DNA of 64,000 nt. Origin: Dermatophagoides farinae. Taxonomy: Eukaryota > Arthropoda > Arachnida > Sarcoptiformes > Pyroglyphidae. Under the pieces are notes generated by a model, which was given only the letters and a program-made list of their open reading frames with translations, was not told the origin of the DNA and searched no databases. Each line of letters begins with the position of its first letter. The first letter of the stretch is position 1. The position numbers and the translations under genes are program-made. Of the stretch, positions 22,886-40,200 are shown piece by piece. The DNA is taken from contig NC_134677.1 in the NCBI RefSeq assembly GCF_024713945.1, forward strand, positions 4,219,001-4,283,000, given 5' to 3'.

Positions 22886-25093
22886 ATGCAAGTGGCCGAA
22901 GTGAATGATATTAAAACCTATAATCTTAGCCAGGGGAAAACAATTCCTGAATGGCTTTCTGATCGAAAGAGACGTCTGCTGCTCAAGAAGAATGTCGATC
23001 TTCGACGGCGAATTCAATTGATACAAGATTTCGATATGCCCATCGTTAGCAATACAGTGAATATCTCACCGGATGGACAATATATTATAGCATCGGGCGT
23101 TTACAAGCCAAGGATACGCTGTTTCGACGTTGAACAATTGGCAATGAAATTCGAAAGATGTTTGGATTCTGAAGTGATCAAATGCATTGTTCTGTCTGAA
23201 GATTATGGAAAATTATTATTATTAGAAGCTGATCGATGGATTGAAGTTCATTCACAAGCGGGATTCTATTTTAGAACACGCCTACCGAAATTTGGTCGTG
23301 ATCTTGCTTACAATTATGCTACCTGTGATGCTTTATTTGTTGGCAATAGTTCGGAGATATATCGACTTAATCTGAGTGTGGGCACATTTTTAAAACCATT
23401 CGAAACGAATTGTTTGGCATTGAATGCGATATCAATAAATCCCGAACATAATCTAATTGTTGTTGGCTCGCAAGAAGGTTTTGTCGAAGCTTGGGACCCA
23501 CGAGTTCGAGAAAGAGTCGGCACATTAGATTGTGCTTTGGAAAGTCTACGAAATGATCCGAATAAAGTAAGCAAAATCCCATCAATTACTTCGATCAAAT
23601 ATCGCGATGGTCTAACGATGGGCGTTGGAACGTCTAATGGTCAGATATTACTATACGATATTCGTGCTAATAAACCATTCTTAAATAAAGATCACATGTA
23701 TGGCCTACCGATCAAGACCATTGAATTTCTCGATGGTCCTTTGAATCTAGTTGCAACACTTGATTCTAAAATAATCAAACTATGGAATCGAAATGATGGT
23801 ACACCATTCACAGCTATTCAAGCTGACAATGACCTCAACATGTTAGCAGCCTATCCGGATTCGGGCATGATGTTCGTAGCGAATGAATCACCAAAAATTT
23901 TAACCTATTACATACCGGCTGTTGGACCTGCACCAAAATGGTGTTCATTTTTGGACCGTATAACCGAAGAATTAGAAGAATCAACCGAGAATGTCATTTA
24001 TGATGATTATAAATTCGTTACAGAAAATGAATTAGAAGAACTTGGCCTTAGCGATTTGATCGGTACAAATCTATTGCGGGCTTATATGCATGGATTTTTT
24101 ATCGATATGCGGTTATATCGTAAAGCTTTGGAAATATCCAAGCCATTTGTTTATGAAGAATATCGCAAACAAAAAATTAAAGAAAAAATCGACTCAGAAC
24201 GCATTGATCGTGTACAGATAACCGATGAATTGCCGAAAGTGAATCGTTCATTAGCGGAAAAATTAATTATAGCTGAAAAGGAACATGAAGAGAAAAAGAA
24301 ACAAAATAAGACTGTTAAATACAAACCTAATCCGTTGAAAGATAATCGATTCTCGGCCTTATTTGAAGATCCAAATTTCGAAATTGATGAAACAAGTGAT
24401 GAATTTCGTCTTTTGAATCCAGTATTATCACGATTAACCAAAAACGATTCAAAAAAATCAACTAGTGTCGATAATGATGATGAACAAACCAAACCAATCT
24501 ATGCCGATATATTTGAAGAAGATGATGTTCTCAATGATAGTATTTCATCGGATTCGGATGAAGATTTAATGTTTGGCAGAAAAAATGATGAAGAAGAAGA
24601 TAACGAAGATGAACTAAAAAATGAACACAAAAATTTTTCAAATACTGATGATGATGATGATGATAATTATGTAGATGATAACAGACACGATTTGGAGAAA
24701 AATAAACTACAAAAACGAACAGTGAAAACAAAATTATATCATCTAAAATCTGGTAAGACGTATGATGATCTCTATAGCCACACTAAGAATGATAAAAATC
24801 CAAACCACCATAATGATGGTAATGATCAACAAGTTGAACGTCAAACATTTGAACAACGATTGAAATTGGTGGAAAAAGAGAATAAAAATAACCGATTGTT
24901 ACAAGGTAGTAGTGGTGGTGGCGGTATCAATGGGAATCGTATCATGACTTTTGTACCGAAACAACAACGAAAAACAAAAACAGATGAAGAACAAAATGTT
25001 AACAACAATCGCCAAATTGAACATAGAAAACAGCGAAAAAAATTGGTGAGAAAAACTACGGGATTAAAATTCAATAAGAATGTTTTTGGATAA
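22886..25093 (+). CDS. NOL10: Nucleolar protein 10 (NOL10/Enp2 family), WD-repeat ribosome biogenesis factor
   Basis: Encodes 735 residues with no intron. NOL10 (yeast Enp2) is a nucleolar WD-repeat protein needed for small-subunit (18S) ribosome maturation. The start chosen is the ATG at 22886, because from there the protein matches the family at once: PEWLSDRKRR at about residues 21-30, then IQLIQDFDMP and NISPDGQYIIASGVYKPRIR. The frame stays open further upstream but encodes only hydrophobic, non-homologous sequence. A beta-propeller fills roughly residues 50-380 (YKPRIRCFDVEQL, KFERCLDSE, GFYFRTRLPKFGRD, IYRLNLSVGTFL). A NUC153 motif follows near residue 485 (DNRFSALFEDPNFEIDETSD, then EFRLLNP). 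After it come a long Asp/Glu-rich stretch and a basic tail (RKQRKKLVRKTTGLKF). It is somewhat longer than the roughly 690 residues of vertebrate NOL10, mainly through the acidic linker. Identification is firm. Confidence 0.95.
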   Translation: MQVAEVNDIKTYNLSQGKTIPEWLSDRKRRLLLKKNVDLRRRIQLIQDFDMPIVSNTVNISPDGQYIIASGVYKPRIRCFDVEQLAMKFERCLDSEVIKCIVLSEDYGKLLLLEADRWIEVHSQAGFYFRTRLPKFGRDLAYNYATCDALFVGNSSEIYRLNLSVGTFLKPFETNCLALNAISINPEHNLIVVGSQEGFVEAWDPRVRERVGTLDCALESLRNDPNKVSKIPSITSIKYRDGLTMGVGTSNGQILLYDIRANKPFLNKDHMYGLPIKTIEFLDGPLNLVATLDSKIIKLWNRNDGTPFTAIQADNDLNMLAAYPDSGMMFVANESPKILTYYIPAVGPAPKWCSFLDRITEELEESTENVIYDDYKFVTENELEELGLSDLIGTNLLRAYMHGFFIDMRLYRKALEISKPFVYEEYRKQKIKEKIDSERIDRVQITDELPKVNRSLAEKLIIAEKEHEEKKKQNKTVKYKPNPLKDNRFSALFEDPNFEIDETSDEFRLLNPVLSRLTKNDSKKSTSVDNDDEQTKPIYADIFEEDDVLNDSISSDSDEDLMFGRKNDEEEDNEDELKNEHKNFSNTDDDDDDNYVDDNRHDLEKNKLQKRTVKTKLYHLKSGKTYDDLYSHTKNDKNPNHHNDGNDQQVERQTFEQRLKLVEKENKNNRLLQGSSGGGGINGNRIMTFVPKQQRKTKTDEEQNVNNNRQIEHRKQRKKLVRKTTGLKFNKNVFG

Positions 25094-27001: not shown

Positions 27002-27218
27002 CGTATGAATTTGTTGACATAAAAAAAGCGCGCGCGTCTTTTTTGACCTAGGCGACCATTTCAACTTAACAGGCTTCAAAGCATGTTTTTCTTTTCGCGT
27101 CAAAAAAATGAATAGCTTGATGAAGCTTCGCGAAAAATCCTGGTAATTTTTGAGCCAATTTTCTGAAAATTCCTATAAATCCATTCATAAAAATTAAAAT
27201 ATTTTGATTGTCGCAAAA
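27002..27218. promoter_or_regulatory. Candidate (possibly bidirectional) promoter of the POM121-like gene
   Basis: The segment stands out in an AT-rich background by its CpG-bearing stretches: GCGCGCGCGTC at about 27030, CCTAGGCGACC at about 27047, CTTTTCGCGTC near 27090 and CTTCGCG near 27127. It lies directly upstream of the ATG at 27219, with no splice acceptor between. A divergent ATG begins at its other edge (27001). Promoter function is inferred from position and composition only. Confidence 0.4.
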
Positions 27219-30200
27219 ATGTTTGTTTTCATTGCATTTGCCTTGTGTATATTTATTATTGTTACAATTGTATCATATTATTATCAACATTATTATTCAC
27301 AAAAAAATCGTTGCCGAACAAGATGCTTCAAGACGACCATCGTCCGTCAATCAAATCAAAACAGTATGAATTCATCACCATTTAATGGTAATGACAATAA
27401 AATTATAAAATGCCCTTTTTAAAAATTATTAAATATTCTTTCAGATTCACTAGTTTCTTCACCTTGCAATGCTAGTTTTTCAGGAATTGGCATTTCAGCA
27501 CAAGTTGATGATAATCTCATTCGTAATCGTTTTCGATTCAGAAATTCACAATTGAATTATATTTCTCCGAATTCAATTTATGGATATGTGCCACACAAAA
27601 GTGGTAACAGTATCAAAAATGAAAAACCTAAAGCCACCAGACAGTTTACGGTGAAACTATCACCATTCCCAACTGGAGCTATATCACCAAACACTTTTAC
27701 TAACCGATTGCCTATTGTAAAATCTGAACACAATGACGATTCGATGAAATCTGGTCATAATGCGGGAGAATCAATGAATGAGCATTTAGATATTGTTTCG
27801 AATACAAATGAAACATCGCCCATACGGGTTACAAATTGGGGTACTTCTAACAACAAAAAACGACCGATGATTTTCGTGGATGATCATGAAAATATGTTGA
27901 GTAAGAAATCTCGAAATCGTGAAGATGATTCTGATATAGAAGTGGATGAAGATGATAATATAGAACCCGATTCTCGAGTTTCACCAACACAATCATCAAT
28001 AACGAGCACGAATAAAAATGATAAAACATTAAAACGAAGTACAAATGTTTTGGATAATGAAAATCAATTTATAATACCTAAGAAACGTGTTCGTAACAAT
28101 GAAATATTAAGTTCATACAGTTCAACTAATTCTAACTTACAAAATCAATTGGCTGTCAACAAACGAAAATTTTCACCTGAAACACAATTTTCATCATTAT
28201 CAAATAATAATGTTATGCGTAAAGCGAAAAAACTAAGTCATATTGAAGAATTGGAATTAATGACATCACAAGTGAAACCGTCTTCAATTAGTGTATTTTC
28301 TGCCGTGGCCGATTCTGCAAATGAAATCAGTGACAAGAAAAATACAGATTCTAAAAAGATCATCATTCTGGATGATGATGACGGGGAAGAAAGTAACAGT
28401 GATGACATATTGACTACTGAAATTGAAATTGAAAGTGATGACACTAAAGAACCAGATCCTGTAATTGAATTGAATTCAGAAGATGATGATGCTGTTGAAT
28501 CATCGGCTGTAACCGAAACGGTAAAAAATTTTGTTCCAAACAATGATGAACGTTTATATCCGATACCAACTTATGTATTCTCAATCAAAGATCATGAACA
28601 TGATAAGAAAAAGAATAAAAACCGCTTAAATCGTTTTATGGCAGCATTACAACAAGCAAATCAAGAATTGGATGATAATTCTGATCAAACATCAAATACA
28701 TCAAAGCAATTATTAACATCAACATCTTCTGCATTTCAACCAATTGAACCATTAACTAATTCAACGATAACAACTACTATTGAAGCATTGAAAAGCTCAG
28801 TTGAACCGGAAAAAACATCTAACGATTTATCTGCGATTGCAGGTAATGAACTTTTGCGAAATGTTCCAATTATTCCAAATAATTTACTTAAGTTCAGTTT
28901 AACCACAGCAACTAAACCATCAATTCCGTCATTTTCAACAGCGGTAACAACAACCACTTCGGCTACAGATATTAAATCTTTAAAAAATGATGCGAATGTT
29001 TCATTTTCAATAATTTTACCGGCGGTTACCAAGCCAAATGATACCAAATCATCATCAGGATTTAAATTTGGCGTAACCGATTCTGATTCAGGTAGCACGA
29101 ATAAATCATCGATTGCAACGGACTCATCGTCAGAAGTTAAAGCCAAAACAAATGAAAGTAATGCAACTAATTTCTCATTTGGCAGTTCAACATTTCAATC
29201 GAATTTATCGAATGTATCAGCTACGACAACTGCCCCAGTATCATCTAGCCAATTCAATGTAACAAATTCAACAAATACGACAACTTTTGCTTTGCCTTCA
29301 ACTACTCTATCTGATAATTTGACTAGTTCAACATTTACATTCAAATCATCTCCGATTAATACGCCAACCAGTACATCAAATGTTGCTGTAAATATACCAA
29401 GTAAACCGCTGACATTTACAGCTGAAACTTCAAATCCCGGCACTCTTAGCCAAACGAATGTCAATTCATCGATATTTGGTTCAATGCAATCATCGAATCA
29501 GTCCAAAAGTACAATCAGTCCCTCATCTAATGATAACGAAAATAAACCATCACCGGTTATCATAAGTAATACTGATAATAATATGACCATTCGCAATGTT
29601 AACAATTCATCTTCGATATTTAATTTTGGTGGAAAAACAGGCCAGAATTCAATGGTCTCATCATTTATGCCATCATCGACTACAAATGTGGTTCCACCGT
29701 CTTTGTCGTTTTCGAATTCAACATTTCAATTTTCGACATTAAATCAATCATCTCATAATGCACAACGGCCTGCCATAACGACAAATCCTATGTTAGTTTC
29801 AATACCATCCACATCATCGACAATGTCTAGTGTGAATACAATGTTCAATTATGGAACATCATCAACACCGATTGGTAAATTTAATTTTGGCATAAATAAT
29901 AATAATCAACAACAACAACAACAACAGCAGATGAATACATCGGCATTTTCATTTAATACACCCACATCGAATAAATCGATTCAGCCACCATCATCGACAA
30001 CAGCAGGATTCAATTTTGCAAGCCCTTCAGTGTCGAAAATCTTCTCATTTACATCGCAAACAGCCAATAATAATAACGAAAACAATAATAATGCTAGGAA
30101 TAATACATTGTTTCAAAATTCATTGGCCAAAAGTTCATCGAACATGTTTGCTATCGGATCATCATCGATGTTAAAACCAACACCATCAAGTGGAAATAAT

Positions 30201-30326
30201 ACGGGATTCGATTTTACATCAACCAACATTAATCCGAGCAGTAATAATGGTTTTAATTTCAATGTTTCAAATACATCAACATCATCGCAGCCGAACAAAT
30301 TTACATTTTCTGCAAATCTATCATAA
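27219..30326 (+). CDS. POM121-like FG nucleoporin with an N-terminal membrane anchor
   Basis: Two exons (27219-27387 and 27445-30326), joined across a 57 bp GTAATG...TTTCAG intron in phase 1, encode 1,016 residues. Residues 2-20 form one membrane segment (FVFIAFALCIFIIVTIVSYY), followed by a Cys/Arg-rich stretch. The middle carries basic NLS-like clusters (NNKKRPMIF, PKKRVRN) and a hydrophobic-acidic motif near residue 362 (KIIILDDDDGEE) resembling a SUMO-interacting motif. Around residue 427, YPIPTYVFSIKD precedes a basic helix. From about residue 595 the protein is Ser/Thr/Asn-rich with phenylalanine repeats (FKFG, FSFG, IFG, FNFGG, FNYG, KFNFG) and degenerate FNFN, FTFS and FDFT units. One N-terminal anchor, an NLS-rich middle and a C-terminal FG domain is the layout of POM121, the pore-membrane nucleoporin. 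Nup153 is less likely because no zinc fingers are present. The assignment rests on architecture rather than clear alignment. Confidence 0.7.
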
Positions 30327-30437
30327 GTACAAACACAATCTTCATCATAATCTGGAGTACCAACAACAGTATCATCAACGTTCCCGTTTGGTGGTGTGAA
30401 TAATTCATCTTTGATTTTTCAATTTAGATCCAAATAA
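30327..30437 (+). other. Coding-like in-frame extension after the POM121-like stop codon
   Basis: Directly after TAA 30324-30326 the same frame reads VQTQSSS, a second TAA at 30345-30347, then SGVPTTVSSTFPFGGVNN and a basic end (FQFRSK) before TAA at 30435. The composition and the FPFG motif match the upstream FG domain. It is either a lost C-terminus or a readthrough product. Confidence 0.45.
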
Positions 30438-31594: not shown

Positions 31595-34500
31595 TCACGA
31601 AGCAACATCAGCAGTGGTTTTAATTGTAGCCGACATTGAATTGGCAGCAACTGCAGCAGCATGTAAATGCGCTTTGATATGTTCCTCAAATTCCGTTGGT
31701 GAATGACATACCTGGCTACATAAAGTACATTTCAATGGTTTATTTGACCAATCATCAATTGCCTGATCGGAACGAAATGAATGGTTTTCCATTTCCTCTT
31801 CATCATCAGCTTTTTCGTTTTCATTATCAACTCGTTGATTAAATGCGGAATTATTAATTCGACTAGTATTATCATTATTGAGATCGATTTCCGGTTCGCA
31901 GACCAGTTCTTTAGATTCATTGCCATAGCTTTTGTTTTCATTATTACCTTCATCATTTTTTCCACTGTGATTTAAAAGTATTTTATCAGAGTTTTCAGCC
32001 AATTCTACAGGAATCTGTGTCGATGGAGACCGTTGCTGTTGTTGTTGTTGCTGTTGATGTTGACTTGACATCATTTTCATCAACATCATTTGCTGTAATG
32101 CCAATTGACTTGCTTCGGGATTAGCTGCGGCTATATTAAAACATTAAGATTAAATTTGATTCGTAATAATGAAAAAACTTACAGTTAAGAAAATGAGGAT
32201 TTAAAAATCTAAGGAAGAGATCGGGATCGTGATTCTGGTGATTACTCGAGGTGGTCATTTCAGTTGGAGAAATAGCCATCGTTAGTGATGGAGGTGTTGC
32301 TGTTGATGCAGCTGTTGATACTGGTGGTAGAGATGATGGAATTTCAGTCGATTTTTTTCGTTGATAATGTTCGGCCATTGATGAAGAATTATTTTGGACA
32401 ATATTTTCACATAATTTTAAATTCGGTAGATCGATCGACATTCGTCGACCACGTCTTGATGGATTACTATGAGTATAGATATGTGTACCCATATGAACCT
32501 AAAGAATTGGATTTGTATGAATAATCGATGACCATTATGAAGATTTTCAAAATAAAATAAAAATTACCTTTAGATTTCCTTTAGTCGTAAATGCTCGTCC
32601 ACAAACTTGGCATTTGAAAGGTTTGTCACCGGTATGTGTCCTCATATGAATCTATTTACAAATATAATATTTAGATTTTCAATAAAAAAAAATAAATGTC
32701 TTGAAATTACCTGTAAAGCCGAACCACTAGAAAATGGTTTATTACAAATGTTACACATGTGTTTATTCGATGATGATGATGATGAACGAGGTGTTGTGTT
32801 ATTACTCGATTCGGTGGCAGGTGATTCAGTATTACGAAATTTATCTGAATCCATTGAATTACCATTAGGCGTATGTGGACTTGCCACACGGCTACTGCTA
32901 TTTGAATTATTTGAAGATGTAGACACATTGTTTTGATGATGTTGAATATTCATTTGTTTGCCAATTATTTTGGTTATGCTATTACTGGTAAGAAAATTTC
33001 CTAATGTTGTATTATCGGATGGTGATATTGTTGAATATAATTCTTGAGGTAAATCACGGATTTTATGTGTTAACATATGTTGTTTCATATTTCCTTTCGT
33101 AGAGAATCCACGATCACAAACTTCACATTTGAATGGCCTTTTTCAAACAAACATATTGAAATTTTTTTTTATTGAAATTTATTTGAAGGTAGAGTGAAAA
33201 TCTAACCTACCTTTCTTTTGTATGAGAACGATAATGAATTTCCAATGCGCTGAAACAAGCAAACGTTTTCAAACAAATTCGACAAGTAGTGTTTGGCCTT
33301 CCTGTAGGATGATAAGGCAAACCAGCGAACGGTGTCGTTGGATATGGGTTGGTTGTGTCATCGTTCGTTTTAGATGATTGCTCATCATTGATATCAGTCG
33401 TGGGAGTTGAATCGTGTGTAATCTTATGTCCATTTTTGCTCGAATGATATCGGTGTGATTGTGGGCTTATTTCTGCAGTTGATTTTATAACATGATGTTC
33501 CAAAGCACTCAACGTATTCTCCTCATTTTTCTTTTCTTTGTCATCAATTTTTTTCTTTTTTATTGGTGATACAAGTGGTTCCTCTTCAATTTCAGTAGTG
33601 TCACTGATAGATCGAACATCATCTACGGTTGTCGAGACTTTGTTTGGTCTATCGTCATCAGTATCGGTTTTTCTTTTGTCTTTTGATGTATCTGAATCAG
33701 TAGTAGCCAAATCATCATCTTTTTCTGCCAGATCGACATTGGAACATTCATTTGATGAAATTCGCGGAAAATTAGCAGCATTAAAAAGATGAAGCGGTAA
33801 GGAATTAGAATTTTGATTTAAATGTTTAGCTGCCATCTCCGAAAGAAAATTAGGGGAAAATAAACCAGGTGCGGCTCCTGGTGGTAGTGATGGAAATGGA
33901 CCATTGAAACCAACAGGTAAAAATGAACGAGGAAAATTCATATGGCTATTTTTTAATTCATTCAACATTTCAGGCGTAATGTCTGGAGCATTTGATCCGT
34001 TCGGGTCGATAGAATGCAAGCGAATATGTTGCTGTAAAACCTAAGAAATTCATAAATTGATTTTAGATTGATAGAAAAAATCCAAAGTGTAAATACGAAC
34101 CAGGGCATTGGTGAATTGTTTATGACAAATAGGACATTGATGAAGCATACGCAATGGAGGTTTAACTCGATGTACACCCATATGTGTTTTAAGATTTCCT
34201 TTGGTAGTGAATGCTCTTCCACAAATCTTACATTTGAATGGTCTTTCACCTGTATGTGTACGATAATGCATTTGTAATGCACTTTTACAGCTCAACACAC
34301 GTTGACAAATAATACATTGATTGGGATCTTGTAGTTTATGTTCGATATTATCAACCAATTGTTGTAATTTAACCGTTTCCGATGCTTTCTGCACTTCCAT
34401 CAATGTTTCCCATGTGCTATCAGTACTACCTGGTTTAGGTAATAGATTTTGATATAAAATCGGATCTTTAGAAGCTTCTTCTACTAGATCAGATTCGCTC

Positions 34501-37294
34501 ATACTGTCAGACATTCGTGGAAATTGCGCGACGGATGAATTATTTGCAGCCAATGAAGCAGGTAAAGAGACCGAATTGGAAAATCCATTTGCATCCATGT
34601 TCAATGGTAATCCCATTAATCCTTGCAATGAAGTTTTCGATGATATTAAACCTATGGTCATGATGAATGAATGAATGAATTCAAAAAATAAATTTATAAA
34701 CTTACCATATGGAATGCCAAATTCATCTTCATACAATTCATCATCATCATCATCATTCAGATCATCCATATCATCGATTTCATTCACATCATGATGATCA
34801 TCAATTTCACCTCTACTATTTTCATCTTCTATTTTCATTGATTCATTAATTGGTTCATTATTATCTTGATTATTATTTTCACTATTATCATTTTCATGAT
34901 GATCTTTGCTTTTTTTCTTTTTATTTTTATCATTTTCAGATGATGGTTCACGTCGTTGGCTGTCGCCATCATCTGTATCCAGATCTGTATCCGAACTATC
35001 AAATGTTGTTTGATCTGATTTACATTTTTGATTCTTTTTATTTTGTTTTGATTGTTCTTCCTGTTTTTCATCATCCGAATGATGACTACTAATATCGGAA
35101 TGGTCACTTTTGATGGAATCTTTAATATCATTATCATCGTCATTATTGTCGTCATCAGCATCATCATCGTCAATATTATTACCATCATCATCAACAACAT
35201 CATCATCATCATCGTCATCATCATCATCATCATCATCGTCAATATTATTACCATCATCATCATCATTATCATTCACACGGGATTCATTGCCATTTTTATA
35301 GAAATTCGCAAAGTCAAATAGACTTTTTGGTTTTGATTTAGCTTTATCACTATTATTTGAGGATTTATTAATAATGGCATCATCATTTGCATATGGAATC
35401 AATGTAGAGCTGAATATCGCTGGAATGTGTAAAGTATTTGATTGTGAATATGAGGATGATGATGTGGGAGGTGGTGGCGGTGGTGGTGGTGGTGATTGGG
35501 AATTTGATGGTGGTTCTAATGGTGGATGAAATTTATCCAAATGTTCAGGTACCGGATGAGGATTCATCTTTACATGTGGATATTTAGCTTTATGACGTTG
35601 AAAATGAACTTTTAAATTTCCTTTGGTCGTAAAGCGATTGCCACAAACATTACACTTAAATGGACGTTCACCAGTATGTGATCGAATATGTATTTGTAAT
35701 GCTGAATCACTACCGAAAACTTTTCCACAAAATTTACATCGATGTCTATTGGCCGGATCTTCTTTACCATCTTTGCCTTTACGAAAATTAAGTAGTTCAT
35801 TATTATCTGTGGTTGAAAGACCATTTAGAAGAAATGAACCGCCAGACATTGTATTCTGTAATGCTTGTTCGGTATGTTTTTGCAACAATTCCAATGTATT
35901 TGGCTCGTTAAATGATGCTGGTTCAGATGAATCAACTTTAGGTGGGCTCATCATTGGAGGTAATGGTGCATCCGGATTCGTATCCTTTAGATCAAGTAAC
36001 GATGAAATGAGTTTACGGGTTGGATTTGAATTCGTAATCGATTCACTTTCACGATCACTTTTGGGTGATGATGAAGATGATGGCTGACATTGTCGATGTG
36101 TACTATTATCGAGATCACTTTTTTCATCATAATCTTGATCTAATGTTGGTACTTTAGTTTTAGGCTCTATCGTCGTTGATGATGATTCGATATGAGTATC
36201 TTTTTTTATTAAATTTTGATTTGATGATGATGATGTACGAGATATGTGTTTCGAATTATGATGATAATTATGAACCGGTGATTTTTTCTTTTGAATATCA
36301 TTATCATTTAATTGATCTGATGAGACTGACCGATTATTATTCATAGTTAATGATGATGATGATGATGGTGGTGGTGGTAATGTTGATTGTGATTGTGAGG
36401 ACTGATGTTGTGCTGCAGCCGCAGCAGCAATCAATGGAAATGGTGGAATCGGTGATGACGTGCTTGGATGTTGTTGTTGTTGAAGTTGATGCATTTGTTG
36501 TAACATATGAAATAACATCATCTGTTGTGTAAACAAAGCTGCTTGTTGTTGTTGCTGTTCCCTGGTCGATGATGAATCATTCCGTTCTGATTGTGATGAT
36601 GGAATTGGTCCACCGGTAAATAACGGTGTTAATGATTCTAAAAAAGCATTCATATCAGGCATTGAAGTAGCAAAGGATGATGGTGCCGTTGTTGTCGTTG
36701 ATGGAATCGGTGATGTCATCATCAATTCATTAGCGATTGGCCAATGTCCTGATAATACGTTCAATGGGCTTGTGGCTCGTTGTTGATTAACTGTGGATGA
36801 GTTTTCCATGGCGACAGCAGCAGCAGCCGCAGCTGCCAAACTTTCGATTGCCATTATTTTATTTAGATTCTGTTGCTGCTCATCCGATAATGATTGATGC
36901 TGATGTTGAAGTAAGGGATGTGTATGATGAGGAAGTAATTGTGGATGCGGATGTGAATGATGACGAGGATGATGTTGAAAGAGTGATGTTGTATCCGAAT
37001 CATGTAAACCAGTGTCATTTAATAGTAATTTATCATCACCGGTATTGTTATTATTATTATTGTTGCTGCTGATGTTGTTACGTGAAACCGACGACGACGA
37101 TGATGATCCATGATGATCAATAATTGTTCTTGCCGTCGTTGTCGTTGTTGTTGAAGGTAATTTTTTCTTACTTTTGCATGATTTTTTATGACTAATCAAT
37201 GCTGCCAATGTAGCATATGAACCACCGCATTTATCGCATAAATTCTTTCCGGTCGGTGCTATATGAGATTTCATTGTCGTTGACAATAGAGGAA
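31595..37294 (-). CDS. sal: Spalt/SALL zinc-finger transcriptional repressor (seven coding exons)
   Basis: Exons on the minus strand are 37294-34706, 34651-34101, 34040-33211, 33137-32711, 32651-32568, 32498-32183 and 32130-31595. All have GT-AG introns of 52-73 bp and matching phases. Fingers in order: an N-terminal C2HC finger ([20 protein letters not shown]); a first pair near 35.7 kb ([30 protein letters not shown]); a second pair plus single finger at 34.3-34.0 kb ([19 protein letters not shown], then [17 protein letters not shown]); a third pair near 33.2 kb ([20 protein letters not shown]); a fourth pair at 32.8-32.5 kb followed by the SALL hallmark [11 protein letters not shown]; and a last C2H2 finger ([17 protein letters not shown]). 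Paired fingers with TTKGNLK are diagnostic of spalt. The family are nuclear repressors acting in appendage, tracheal and neural development, partly through NuRD. Linkers are greatly expanded with poly-Ser, poly-Gln and poly-Asp. Confidence 0.94.
34652..34705 (-). other. 54 bp phase-symmetric spalt intron without an in-frame stop
   Basis: GTAAGT donor at 34705 and ATAG acceptor at 34653-34652. Removing it restores GIPYGLISSKT, near the conserved GIPYA-type segment of SALL proteins. Because its length is a multiple of three and it has no stop, retention would insert 18 mostly hydrophobic residues rather than break the frame. Confidence 0.75.
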
Positions 37295-40200
37295 CTGGTT
37301 GAAACAAAAAAAAAATATAAACAAATTATCAATAAATGAGACAAAAATCCAATCAAATACAATGCAAATTACAACCATAAACCTGTTTTTTTAAGTTAGT
37401 GGAAAAATTTATAAAAATATCTCTTGCTAAATCAACTAAGATTCTATAAAATTGATCGAAGACAACAACGGATTTGTTCTCATTGAATAAATAAGAGCTG
37501 AACATCAAAAACATAAACACGTAAGCATACATAGGAAAAAATACATAAAAACTTTCAATCGAACAGAATCGGTATTAACGAGCAATCAACAACAAGAAAG
37601 TAGAAAAACAAATTTTTTTAAAAAAAAGACAACTGTAAATTGGTCTGTCTATTTGAATACAATCTAGTTTAATGAAGATGATGATAGTAGAATTAATAGT
37701 TGAGCTAAAATCGGTTAAAATACATCAAATTAGTGTTTCAAGTTTTTTCCAAATTCGTCATCATCAGTTATACCTTCTTCTCTCTCTTTCTAGTTACTAT
37801 TAAGATGTTAAATAGTACTAATCTCAATAAATGAGAAAAAAAGAATGGAGAAAAATAAAGTGGAATCTTTCTAATTTATCGTATATAGAAATTAGACAAT
37901 ATTCAATGTGGAATAATGAAAAAAGGGTTGCATTTTGATATAAGTTTATATATATTTTTCTTTAATACCTATAATGCATTGAACGATTGTTGGTGGAAAT
38001 AAAATCCAAGGCTTATATGATGTGTGTGTGTGTGTGTGTAACGTTTGAAACATTGGACAATCATGATGATTATAATAATGAAAATAATTAATGAATGAAA
38101 TAAAAGAAAATCCTGGATCAAATTTGGTGTATAGAAAAATTACTTTTTTAAAAGGTGCCTATGAATGATATATAATTAATATAATGGATTATCCCAAAAA
38201 GTGACATGGGTTGATTTTCTATACTTGTTTGTCATATTAAACTATATCATGATGATATGACAGTTTCCCTTACTTGCTTATACATTCATCATGTCATCAT
38301 TCATTCACTGAAATGTATGGATATGTACAATATTTAATTAGAATCACTTTAATTAAAATGATTTTCATTGAAAAAAAGCTCAGTATTTTTTTCTGACTTG
38401 ATATTGCTGTATAATGTGGATGAATTGCTGGTGGTACCCTGTATATATTTGTGAGTATGTAAGGACCATGAAAAGATTGAGATGGAGAAAGAAATTATTT
38501 AGCTGATTTTAATCACTTGACATTCTTTCTATATATCAATGGCCACCATATATATAACTCGAAACCGTTCGTTTTTCTTATTGTTTTTCTTTTCTTTTTT
38601 TTGCATCAACATCATCATCATCATCATCGTTGTTGTTGTTGGGTGAAAATGAGAGCTTGAATCATCACTCACGAGAATATATATGTAATTTTAATCATTT
38701 TCTCTCATGAGGGTATGAGGATTAATATTGCTTGAATAAGAAAAATAAAGCTAAAAAAACCCCTTGGAAATAAAGATAACAATTATAATGATGATGAGAT
38801 GATGATGATTTTGGCTCAGGATGTTCATTGAAATGCATATATATTGCATAAATAAATAAATGTATGAACCATATGATTTTCGCATAAATCACACTTGAAT
38901 TAACAAACTAGATCTAGATCTAGATCGTCATTTATCAATCTATATATAAAATGAGCATTGAGAATATATCAAATCGATTATTGGAAGCTACCTTAATCGG
39001 ATACTACTACTACTACTGTTTAGCCATTGGCCTATCAAAACATGAATATTCATTCAAAATGACATGCGTATCACATTTGATGATTTTAGATAAAAAAAAT
39101 AGTTTTGATTTAATACCATTACTCATGATGATGATGATTACGCAAATGATGATTGTGAATTCCAACAAAAAAAACACTAATTAACAAAAAAATCTATTTC
39201 TATGAATTCTATCATCATTATCATCATCATCATCATCATGTTTGTTCATTAGCAAAATAAAAAGCTATATATATGATTATTATTATCCTCATTATTGCCT
39301 ATAAAATAAACGGGAATAATCAACAATGTTGGAAAAAAGAGAAGAAAAAATTCTTTCTATAATGGACATACAAAGCAATAGTGAAAGTTTTGCATACAAA
39401 AAAAATTGAATAAATATTATTGTAATGTCCAATTTATTCCTCAAAAAATTTCAAAATAAAAATTTAATAAATTTTTTCGGATTATGAAGGAATAAATTCT
39501 CATTTTGTTTGTTCCATATTCATATTTTAAGTGCATTGACACACACACACACAAAAAAAAATTCTGATTCACTATTGTAACGTTATTATTTGTAAGAAAA
39601 TATCAAATACATAAATAATTCAGATATATCGATGTACAATACGTGGAAAAACATCAATATATGAATAATTTATTTTTGTTTATTTGATTAACCATACTAA
39701 ATTTGGATTCGTATCGATATACAAGATATAACTGTAACTTGAATAGAAAAAAATATTAAAATTTACTCATGAAAAACGTTGATTTTCATCGTAAAATAGT
39801 ACAAAAGATTCCTAGGTGAAGATTTTTTAAATCAGCAACACATACATTTGTCATTTGTTAACGTTTTCAAAAAAAATATCACTCAATAATAAACGAAAAT
39901 GGAAAACATACGATATGTGTCAACGGTAGGAGGCAGTTTTTTCTAGATTCGATTAGATTGACATTCAATCGACTTTCAAAAGAAAAATATTAATATTATT
40001 ATCATTTCTCATTCTATTCAAACATCTTAAGTTTTTTCGATGAAAAAAAATCAAATATTAAAAAAATTCTTCATTTATTTTTGTTATTAAATTTTTTCGT
40101 TTTCAAGTCATTCCATAGGACAAATATAATAAATTCAAACGAAAACATGATACGAAATGCACATAAACACACACACACACACACTATACATCAAGTTGAC

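Follow-up and report, generated by a model that had tools for sequence, protein, structure and literature searches.

Vertebrate POM121 (Pfam family PF15229) is a pore-membrane nucleoporin that binds NUP155 and the Y-complex and has an early role in interphase pore assembly, according to passages in two sources (PMC13242641, PMC8700311). Most papers describe it from vertebrates or chordates. In the passages that concern POM121, Neumann et al. (2010) present it as vertebrate-restricted, with none in the dipteran, tunicate and nematode genomes analysed, and its distribution has served as an argument in the debate over open versus closed mitosis (PMC2951903); likewise, a 2016 paper has it emerging in vertebrates (PMC4888837), a 2018 analysis places it in chordates only (PMC6371224) and a 2022 paper describes C. 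elegans as lacking it (PMC9296133). Two reviews from 2021, however, include statements that POM121 is ‘more widely found’ (PMC8421043) or ‘more widely conserved’ (PMC8700311), and a Tetrahymena protein, TtPom121, bears a name that, by its description, rests on architecture and localisation: an N-terminal membrane segment, a suggested NLS and a C-terminal FG tail (PMC5450191). A sequence-only reading of the locus reported here had called this architecture one usually described from vertebrates, which holds for most of these papers but not for the Tetrahymena protein or the reviews. A profile library from 2023 used a human POM121 seed, as was its stated practice where a Drosophila protein was unavailable (PMC10034585). 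In the titles and abstract openings of the papers listed for POM121 outside vertebrates, we found no report of an arthropod POM121.

The gene described here lies in a 64,000-nucleotide stretch of DNA (the window; G000:C1:4219001-4283000) of the mite Dermatophagoides farinae, whose genome was searched as 62.4 Mb in 22 contigs. Its open frame runs on the forward strand from an ATG at 27219 to a stop at 30326 and encodes 1016 amino acids in two exons; an in-frame stop at 27195 lies upstream of the ATG. Exon 1 (27219..27387) carries the start codon, a membrane segment and a basic flank (residues 1-56 and the first base of codon 57), the intron (27388..27444) is 57 bp long and reads GTAATG...TTTCAG, and exon 2 (27445..30326, stop included) encodes residues 57-1016. 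The gene is real and its structure is as given here, so that the two-exon model with a 57 bp intron proposed earlier was right. Residues 1-490 are single copy, with no second match in the whole genome at E 0.001.

We propose that this gene is probably a highly diverged arthropod orthologue of POM121 that anchors FG repeats at the pore membrane. Like the Tetrahymena protein as described, the mite protein has an N-terminal membrane segment, NLS-like sequence and a C-terminal FG tail. With vertebrate POM121 it shares a single N-terminal membrane segment with a basic flank and, in the same order, a bipartite NLS-like block, an SSYSST block, a P-x-P..[YF]-S-I motif followed by a helix, and the FG tail. 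It differs in falling below Pfam detection, in having almost no residues ahead of the membrane segment, in an FxF-rich tail with 5 FG and in an anchor that itself has no detectable similarity; it is also without the basic C-terminal end that we take human POM121 to have. Hydropathy and motif counts bear out the architecture as it was first described, namely one N-terminal membrane segment, NLS-like patches and a C-terminal FG domain.

The hydrophobic membrane segment occupies residues 1-20 (27219..27278, forward strand). The best mean Kyte–Doolittle (KD) value, 2.98, is that of residues 1-19, and each of the eight highest-scoring 19-residue windows begins within residues 1-8; a single-sequence AF2 model places a helix at residues 2-47 (block-mean pLDDT of 95 and 97 over residues 1-20). 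Directly C-terminal of the segment, residues 20-45 have a net charge of +6. By the positive-inside rule, a basic flank after such a segment places the N-terminus in the lumen and the remainder on the pore or cytosolic side, and the N-terminus of the mite protein is thus predicted to be lumenal, with the rest toward pore or cytosol. At the sequence level this is the POM121 arrangement of a single N-terminal membrane segment with the remainder predicted on the pore side. The vertebrate POM121 anchor does not match the mite one: of 2707 decoys, 377 equal or beat its best place in the mite protein. Because hydrophobic frames are common in AT-rich DNA, we measured how often such an anchor occurs in a 200 kb sample of this genome, which holds 1088 acceptor-like sites: an in-phase first exon with an accepted donor and a KD of at least 2.9 lies upstream of 3 of these sites, and a hydrophobic in-phase first exon at the weaker threshold of at least 2.0 is found at 25 of them.

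Profile searches do not place the protein in the POM121 family. PF15229 matched neither the mite protein nor its pieces at E up to 10 (a threshold to be read with the HMMER filters in mind, which drop most matches above E about 0.1), and gave nothing at E 0.001 against the whole genome. Since the family cut-off is not reached, we file the gene as a diverged candidate orthologue of POM121 and not as a confirmed member. In Pfam, the whole protein had chance-level matches only, one each, and the best match among four pieces (Flavodoxin_5, E 0.013) fell under that family’s cut-off and was taken as chance. Residues 1-437 had no phmmer match in the PDB, 340 residues of a provisional human POM121 sequence searched against the six-frame translated genome found nothing at E up to 10, and a hidden Markov model built from provisional human and rat sequences did not score the mite protein above its own shuffles. 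The HMM–HMM comparison with POM121 (hhalign) fell short of significance (probability 2.2, E 0.021), although its sole match fell exactly at the YPIPTYVFSI block. The same genome had no match to PF09531 (NDC1) at E up to 1, and of 45 pattern stretches on contigs from bacteria and archaea, none was confirmed.

How much these blanks weigh can be judged from a second gene, which serves as a test case for profile sensitivity, being Nup153-like yet unseen by Pfam’s Nup153 model. This locus (L028; G000:C1:3535109 and 3535361, reverse strand) has two zinc fingers scored by the genome search, and by eye four W-x-C-x2-C motifs together with FxFG repeats. We read it as the mite Nup153 because of its zinc fingers, its FxFG repeats and its alignment to human Nup153. 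Pfam recognised two RanBP2-type zinc fingers in it and missed the Nup153 family, and PF08604 (Nup153), run against the whole genome at E up to 1, found nothing. As a profile can overlook a gene that reads as Nup153, such blanks prove little, and the POM121 profile misses deserve less weight accordingly.

We compared sequences by gap-tolerant, end-to-end alignment, chosen because such proteins consist of disordered, low-complexity sequence. The human POM121, rat POM121 and human Nup153 sequences used were provisional and were partly checked: against PF15229 the human sequence scores 366 bits (a check that covers human residues 306-539 only) and the rat sequence 362 bits, Nup153 scores 868 bits against PF08604, and a 30-residue POM121 stretch, the one that pairs with the mite NLS block, matches the POM 121 chain of PDB 4yi0_A. 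Two null models were used, shuffles within ten-residue blocks and natural mite frames. Residues 57-490 align to these POM121 sequences with z 5.30 (human) and 4.95 (rat), the top rank among 49 segments. The natural decoys, 46 in number, are overlapping stretches cut from open frames of 350 aa or more on either strand, with parts of the Nup153-like and Nup98-type genes among them; their mean z is 0.01 (human) and −0.08 (rat), with s.d. 1.27 and 1.03 and maxima of 3.70 and 2.80; the reversed mite segment reaches 0.74 and 0.31, and the mite tail 0.27 and −0.64. Repeat runs at the same setting gave human and rat z of 4.78 and 4.35, 5.00 and 4.67, and 4.40 and 4.38, in which the score was reached by 0 of 400 shuffles each, by 0 and 1 of 200, and by 1 and 0 of 300, respectively. 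The settings for this whole-region alignment were our own choice; across 12 scoring settings, the one used included, z ranged from 4.3 to 6.5 for human and from 2.6 to 4.4 for rat. Plain local alignment gave a weaker signal: z was 3.29 for human and 1.33 for rat, the latter equalled or exceeded by 19 of 200 shuffles.

Collinear similarity in the central region comes mainly through one block and is weaker with rat. This block, B6 (residues 427-475; 28554..28700, forward strand), consists of LYPIPTYVFSI followed by a helix and aligns to human LPPPPQLGYSI..LEKKASLQWFNQALEDKSD. Alone it has z 4.84 (human) and 3.42 (rat); among 3055 decoys, drawn as six-frame stretches from 303 kb, none was as good or better for human and one was for rat, and with stricter gaps B6 is the sole block that none of 2707 decoys matched. 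The YPIPTYVFSI region that the sequence-only reading had singled out as the place to look for POM121 relatedness thus carries most of the collinear signal. Its predicted helix (residues 441-467; 28596..28676, forward strand) is moderately amphipathic (hydrophobic moment 0.29-0.46); in the single-sequence AF2 model, block-mean pLDDT is 91-92 over the middle and the whole piece has a mean of 66. The bipartite NLS-like block (residues 194-219; 27855..27932, forward strand; KKR..IFVDDHEN..KKSR) aligns to human POM121 KKRT..QIFLDGQENKRRR, where the human sequence used here has its own bipartite NLS. With the human query no decoy of 3055 was as good, narrowly (44.0 against 43.0 for the best decoy); with rat 23 of 3055 were as good or better, and with stricter gaps 30 of 2707. 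For the SSYSST ... KAKKLSHIEEL block (residues 275-326; 28098..28253, forward strand), decoys as good or better numbered 0 of 3055 for human and 6 for rat, and 8 of 2707 for a shorter block with stricter gaps. These blocks, which were picked after inspection, follow POM121 order; under stricter gapping, the best placements of POM121 blocks B1, B2 and B4 break that order. Pieces without B6 are not significant alone (human and rat z of 0.89 and 0.45 for residues 57-190, 1.70 and 0.99 for 180-345, and 0.66 and 0.90 for 345-420), and residues 57-420 taken together have z 2.68 and 3.24, scores that 8 and 4 of 1000 shuffles attained.

For comparison, the mite Nup153-like gene aligned with human Nup153 has global z of 2.79, 3.42 and 4.45, so that the POM121 signal is about as strong as that of the Nup153 pair. 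The two proteins do not cross-match: the window protein has global z of 0.75, 0.36 and −0.29 against human Nup153, and the Nup153-like gene has −0.03 and 1.05 against human and rat POM121. In sequence, the middle of the window protein is collinear with POM121 and not with Nup153. The two mite proteins are alike in being disordered and in carrying FxFG; the RanBP2-type zinc-finger motifs belong to the Nup153-like gene, and Pfam finds zero zinc fingers in the window protein. A best match to a soluble Nup153-type protein, which had been named as an outcome that would speak against POM121, is accordingly not favoured, with z at most 0.75 for Nup153 against 5.00 and 4.67 for POM121 and a separate Nup153-like gene in the genome.

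Other nucleoporin identities were considered. Nup153 was rejected for the missing zinc fingers and similarity (global z at most 0.75), Nup98 because Pfam finds no autoproteolytic domain in the mite protein, and the Nup50, Nup214 and Nup62 types because Pfam finds no folded domain in it. Nup98-type domains (PF04096) occur elsewhere in the genome, at L023 (G000:C10) and L024 (G000:C16); one lies near FG-rich sequence, with 19 FG in a 704-residue frame (a fetched fragment), and the other has 1 FG in a 927-residue frame. The frame with 19 FG indicates that FG repeats have not generally been lost in this lineage.

The strongest competing account is convergence, in which an anchor exon joined an FxFG protein independently in the mite lineage, giving a protein that works like POM121 by separate descent. 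Profile-level similarity is absent, most of the POM121 signal is a single block, the anchor shows no similarity, hydrophobic first exons are not very rare (the 25 of 1088 sites noted above), and the Tetrahymena Pom121, as described, was named from architecture and localisation (PMC5450191). These points favour convergence; the collinearity of the middle region with POM121 and not with Nup153 speaks against it, and we regard convergence as unlikely. The earlier POM121 reading is supported in part: the architecture stands, the HMM–HMM support it looked for was not significant, and the more tolerant collinear comparison with natural decoys is clearly positive.

A second alternative is a soluble nucleoporin, in which the anchor exon is unused and transcripts start from another upstream exon or within exon 2. 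Mammals have soluble POM121 variants with the middle region and FG tail and without the anchor, as a passage in one paper describes (PMC4888837); the mite gene model differs from them in having one. By codon usage, exon 1 cannot be told from background (−0.231, where background has −0.290, s.d. 0.135), and Met157, the first in exon 2, could begin a shorter protein. However, the part of exon 2 before Met157 has a right-frame coding score of 0.189 (equal-length background mean −0.288, s.d. 0.103, maximum 0.117); this signal extends to the start of exon 2 and precedes Met157, so translation should begin upstream, which calls for a further exon there. Of the 6 YAG acceptors between 27421 and 27560, 4 keep the anchor in frame, those alternative to the modelled one ending at 27453, 27483 and 27498 (forward strand), and an equally strong anchor occurs at only 3 of 1088 sites. 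We infer that the anchor exon is used, and consider a soluble product improbable.

Basic NLS-like patches lie at residues 194, 210, 269, 296, 315 and 444, and the FG motifs are FKFG at 596, FSFG at 633, FG at 734, and FNFG at 782 and 869. The tail (residues 596-1016; 29061..30323, forward strand) is low in complexity and rich in S, N and T. Over residues 560-1016, FxFG occurs 4 times (0.1 expected) and FxF 12 times (2.7 expected), numbers that none of 5000 shuffles attained in either case; plain FG stands out less (5 occurrences, 1.3 expected; 38 of 5000 shuffles reach that number). The FxFG tail is non-random, and the C-terminal FG repeats of POM121 have their counterpart in this FxFG enrichment, though total FG is 5. 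A Ser/Thr/Asn-rich membrane or secreted protein with FG motifs by chance would fit the tail’s composition and low FG total, but the FxFG and FxF enrichment, the several NLS-like patches and the POM121 similarity make this very improbable.

If the gene is a POM121 orthologue, analogy with the vertebrate protein suggests how it may work. The N-terminal segment would act as a single signal anchor whose N-terminal end lies in the nuclear-envelope lumen, leaving the long disordered portion on the pore side, and importins recognising the basic patches would carry the protein to the inner nuclear membrane. The middle region (NLS block, SSYSST block and YPIPTYVFSI plus helix) may dock the scaffold nucleoporins, Nup155 and the Nup160 complex; the genome does contain a gene with a strong Nup155-type propeller match (PF08801, 239.7 bits). 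The FxFG/FxF tail would thereby be held in the channel, where it would bind transport receptors.

We lean towards a broader account, in which POM121 was already an anchored FG nucleoporin with the same docking blocks in the ancestor of arthropods and vertebrates, was hidden by fast change in arthropods and was genuinely lost from nematodes and possibly from flies. Under this ancestral origin, the YPIPTYVFSI-helix block would be the most conserved functional part of POM121. A copy in an arthropod would notably extend the known range of POM121 without being a new kind of protein. If correct, it would move the origin of POM121 back to at least the protostome–deuterostome ancestor, warn that profile-based absence calls are unreliable for disordered pore proteins, and mark the short YSI-helix block as the part of POM121 under strongest constraint and a direct target for binding tests.

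Some features surrounding the gene were also recorded. Beyond the stop at 30326, the same frame reads on through a second stop as FG-like coding sequence (30327-30437, forward strand; SGVPTTVSSTFPFGGVNNSSLIFQFRSK), which could reflect a recent shortening of the tail, unannotated splicing or a misassembly. A NOL10 orthologue with Pfam NOL10 domains and NUC153 lies on the same strand, upstream of the gene (22886-25090). Downstream on the opposite strand (34053-37325) is a C2H2 zinc-finger gene, probably spalt-like, and the adjacent frame at 33207-34040, which has no Pfam family, may be another of its exons. Elsewhere in the genome, the group 2 allergen locus (C1:893099-893464) agrees with the structurally solved Der f 2 chain (1ahk) at all but 1 of 120 residues and scores lower against Der p 2; this near-identity to Der f 2 identifies the source as a Dermatophagoides farinae-like mite, in keeping with its initial description as an apparent arthropod.
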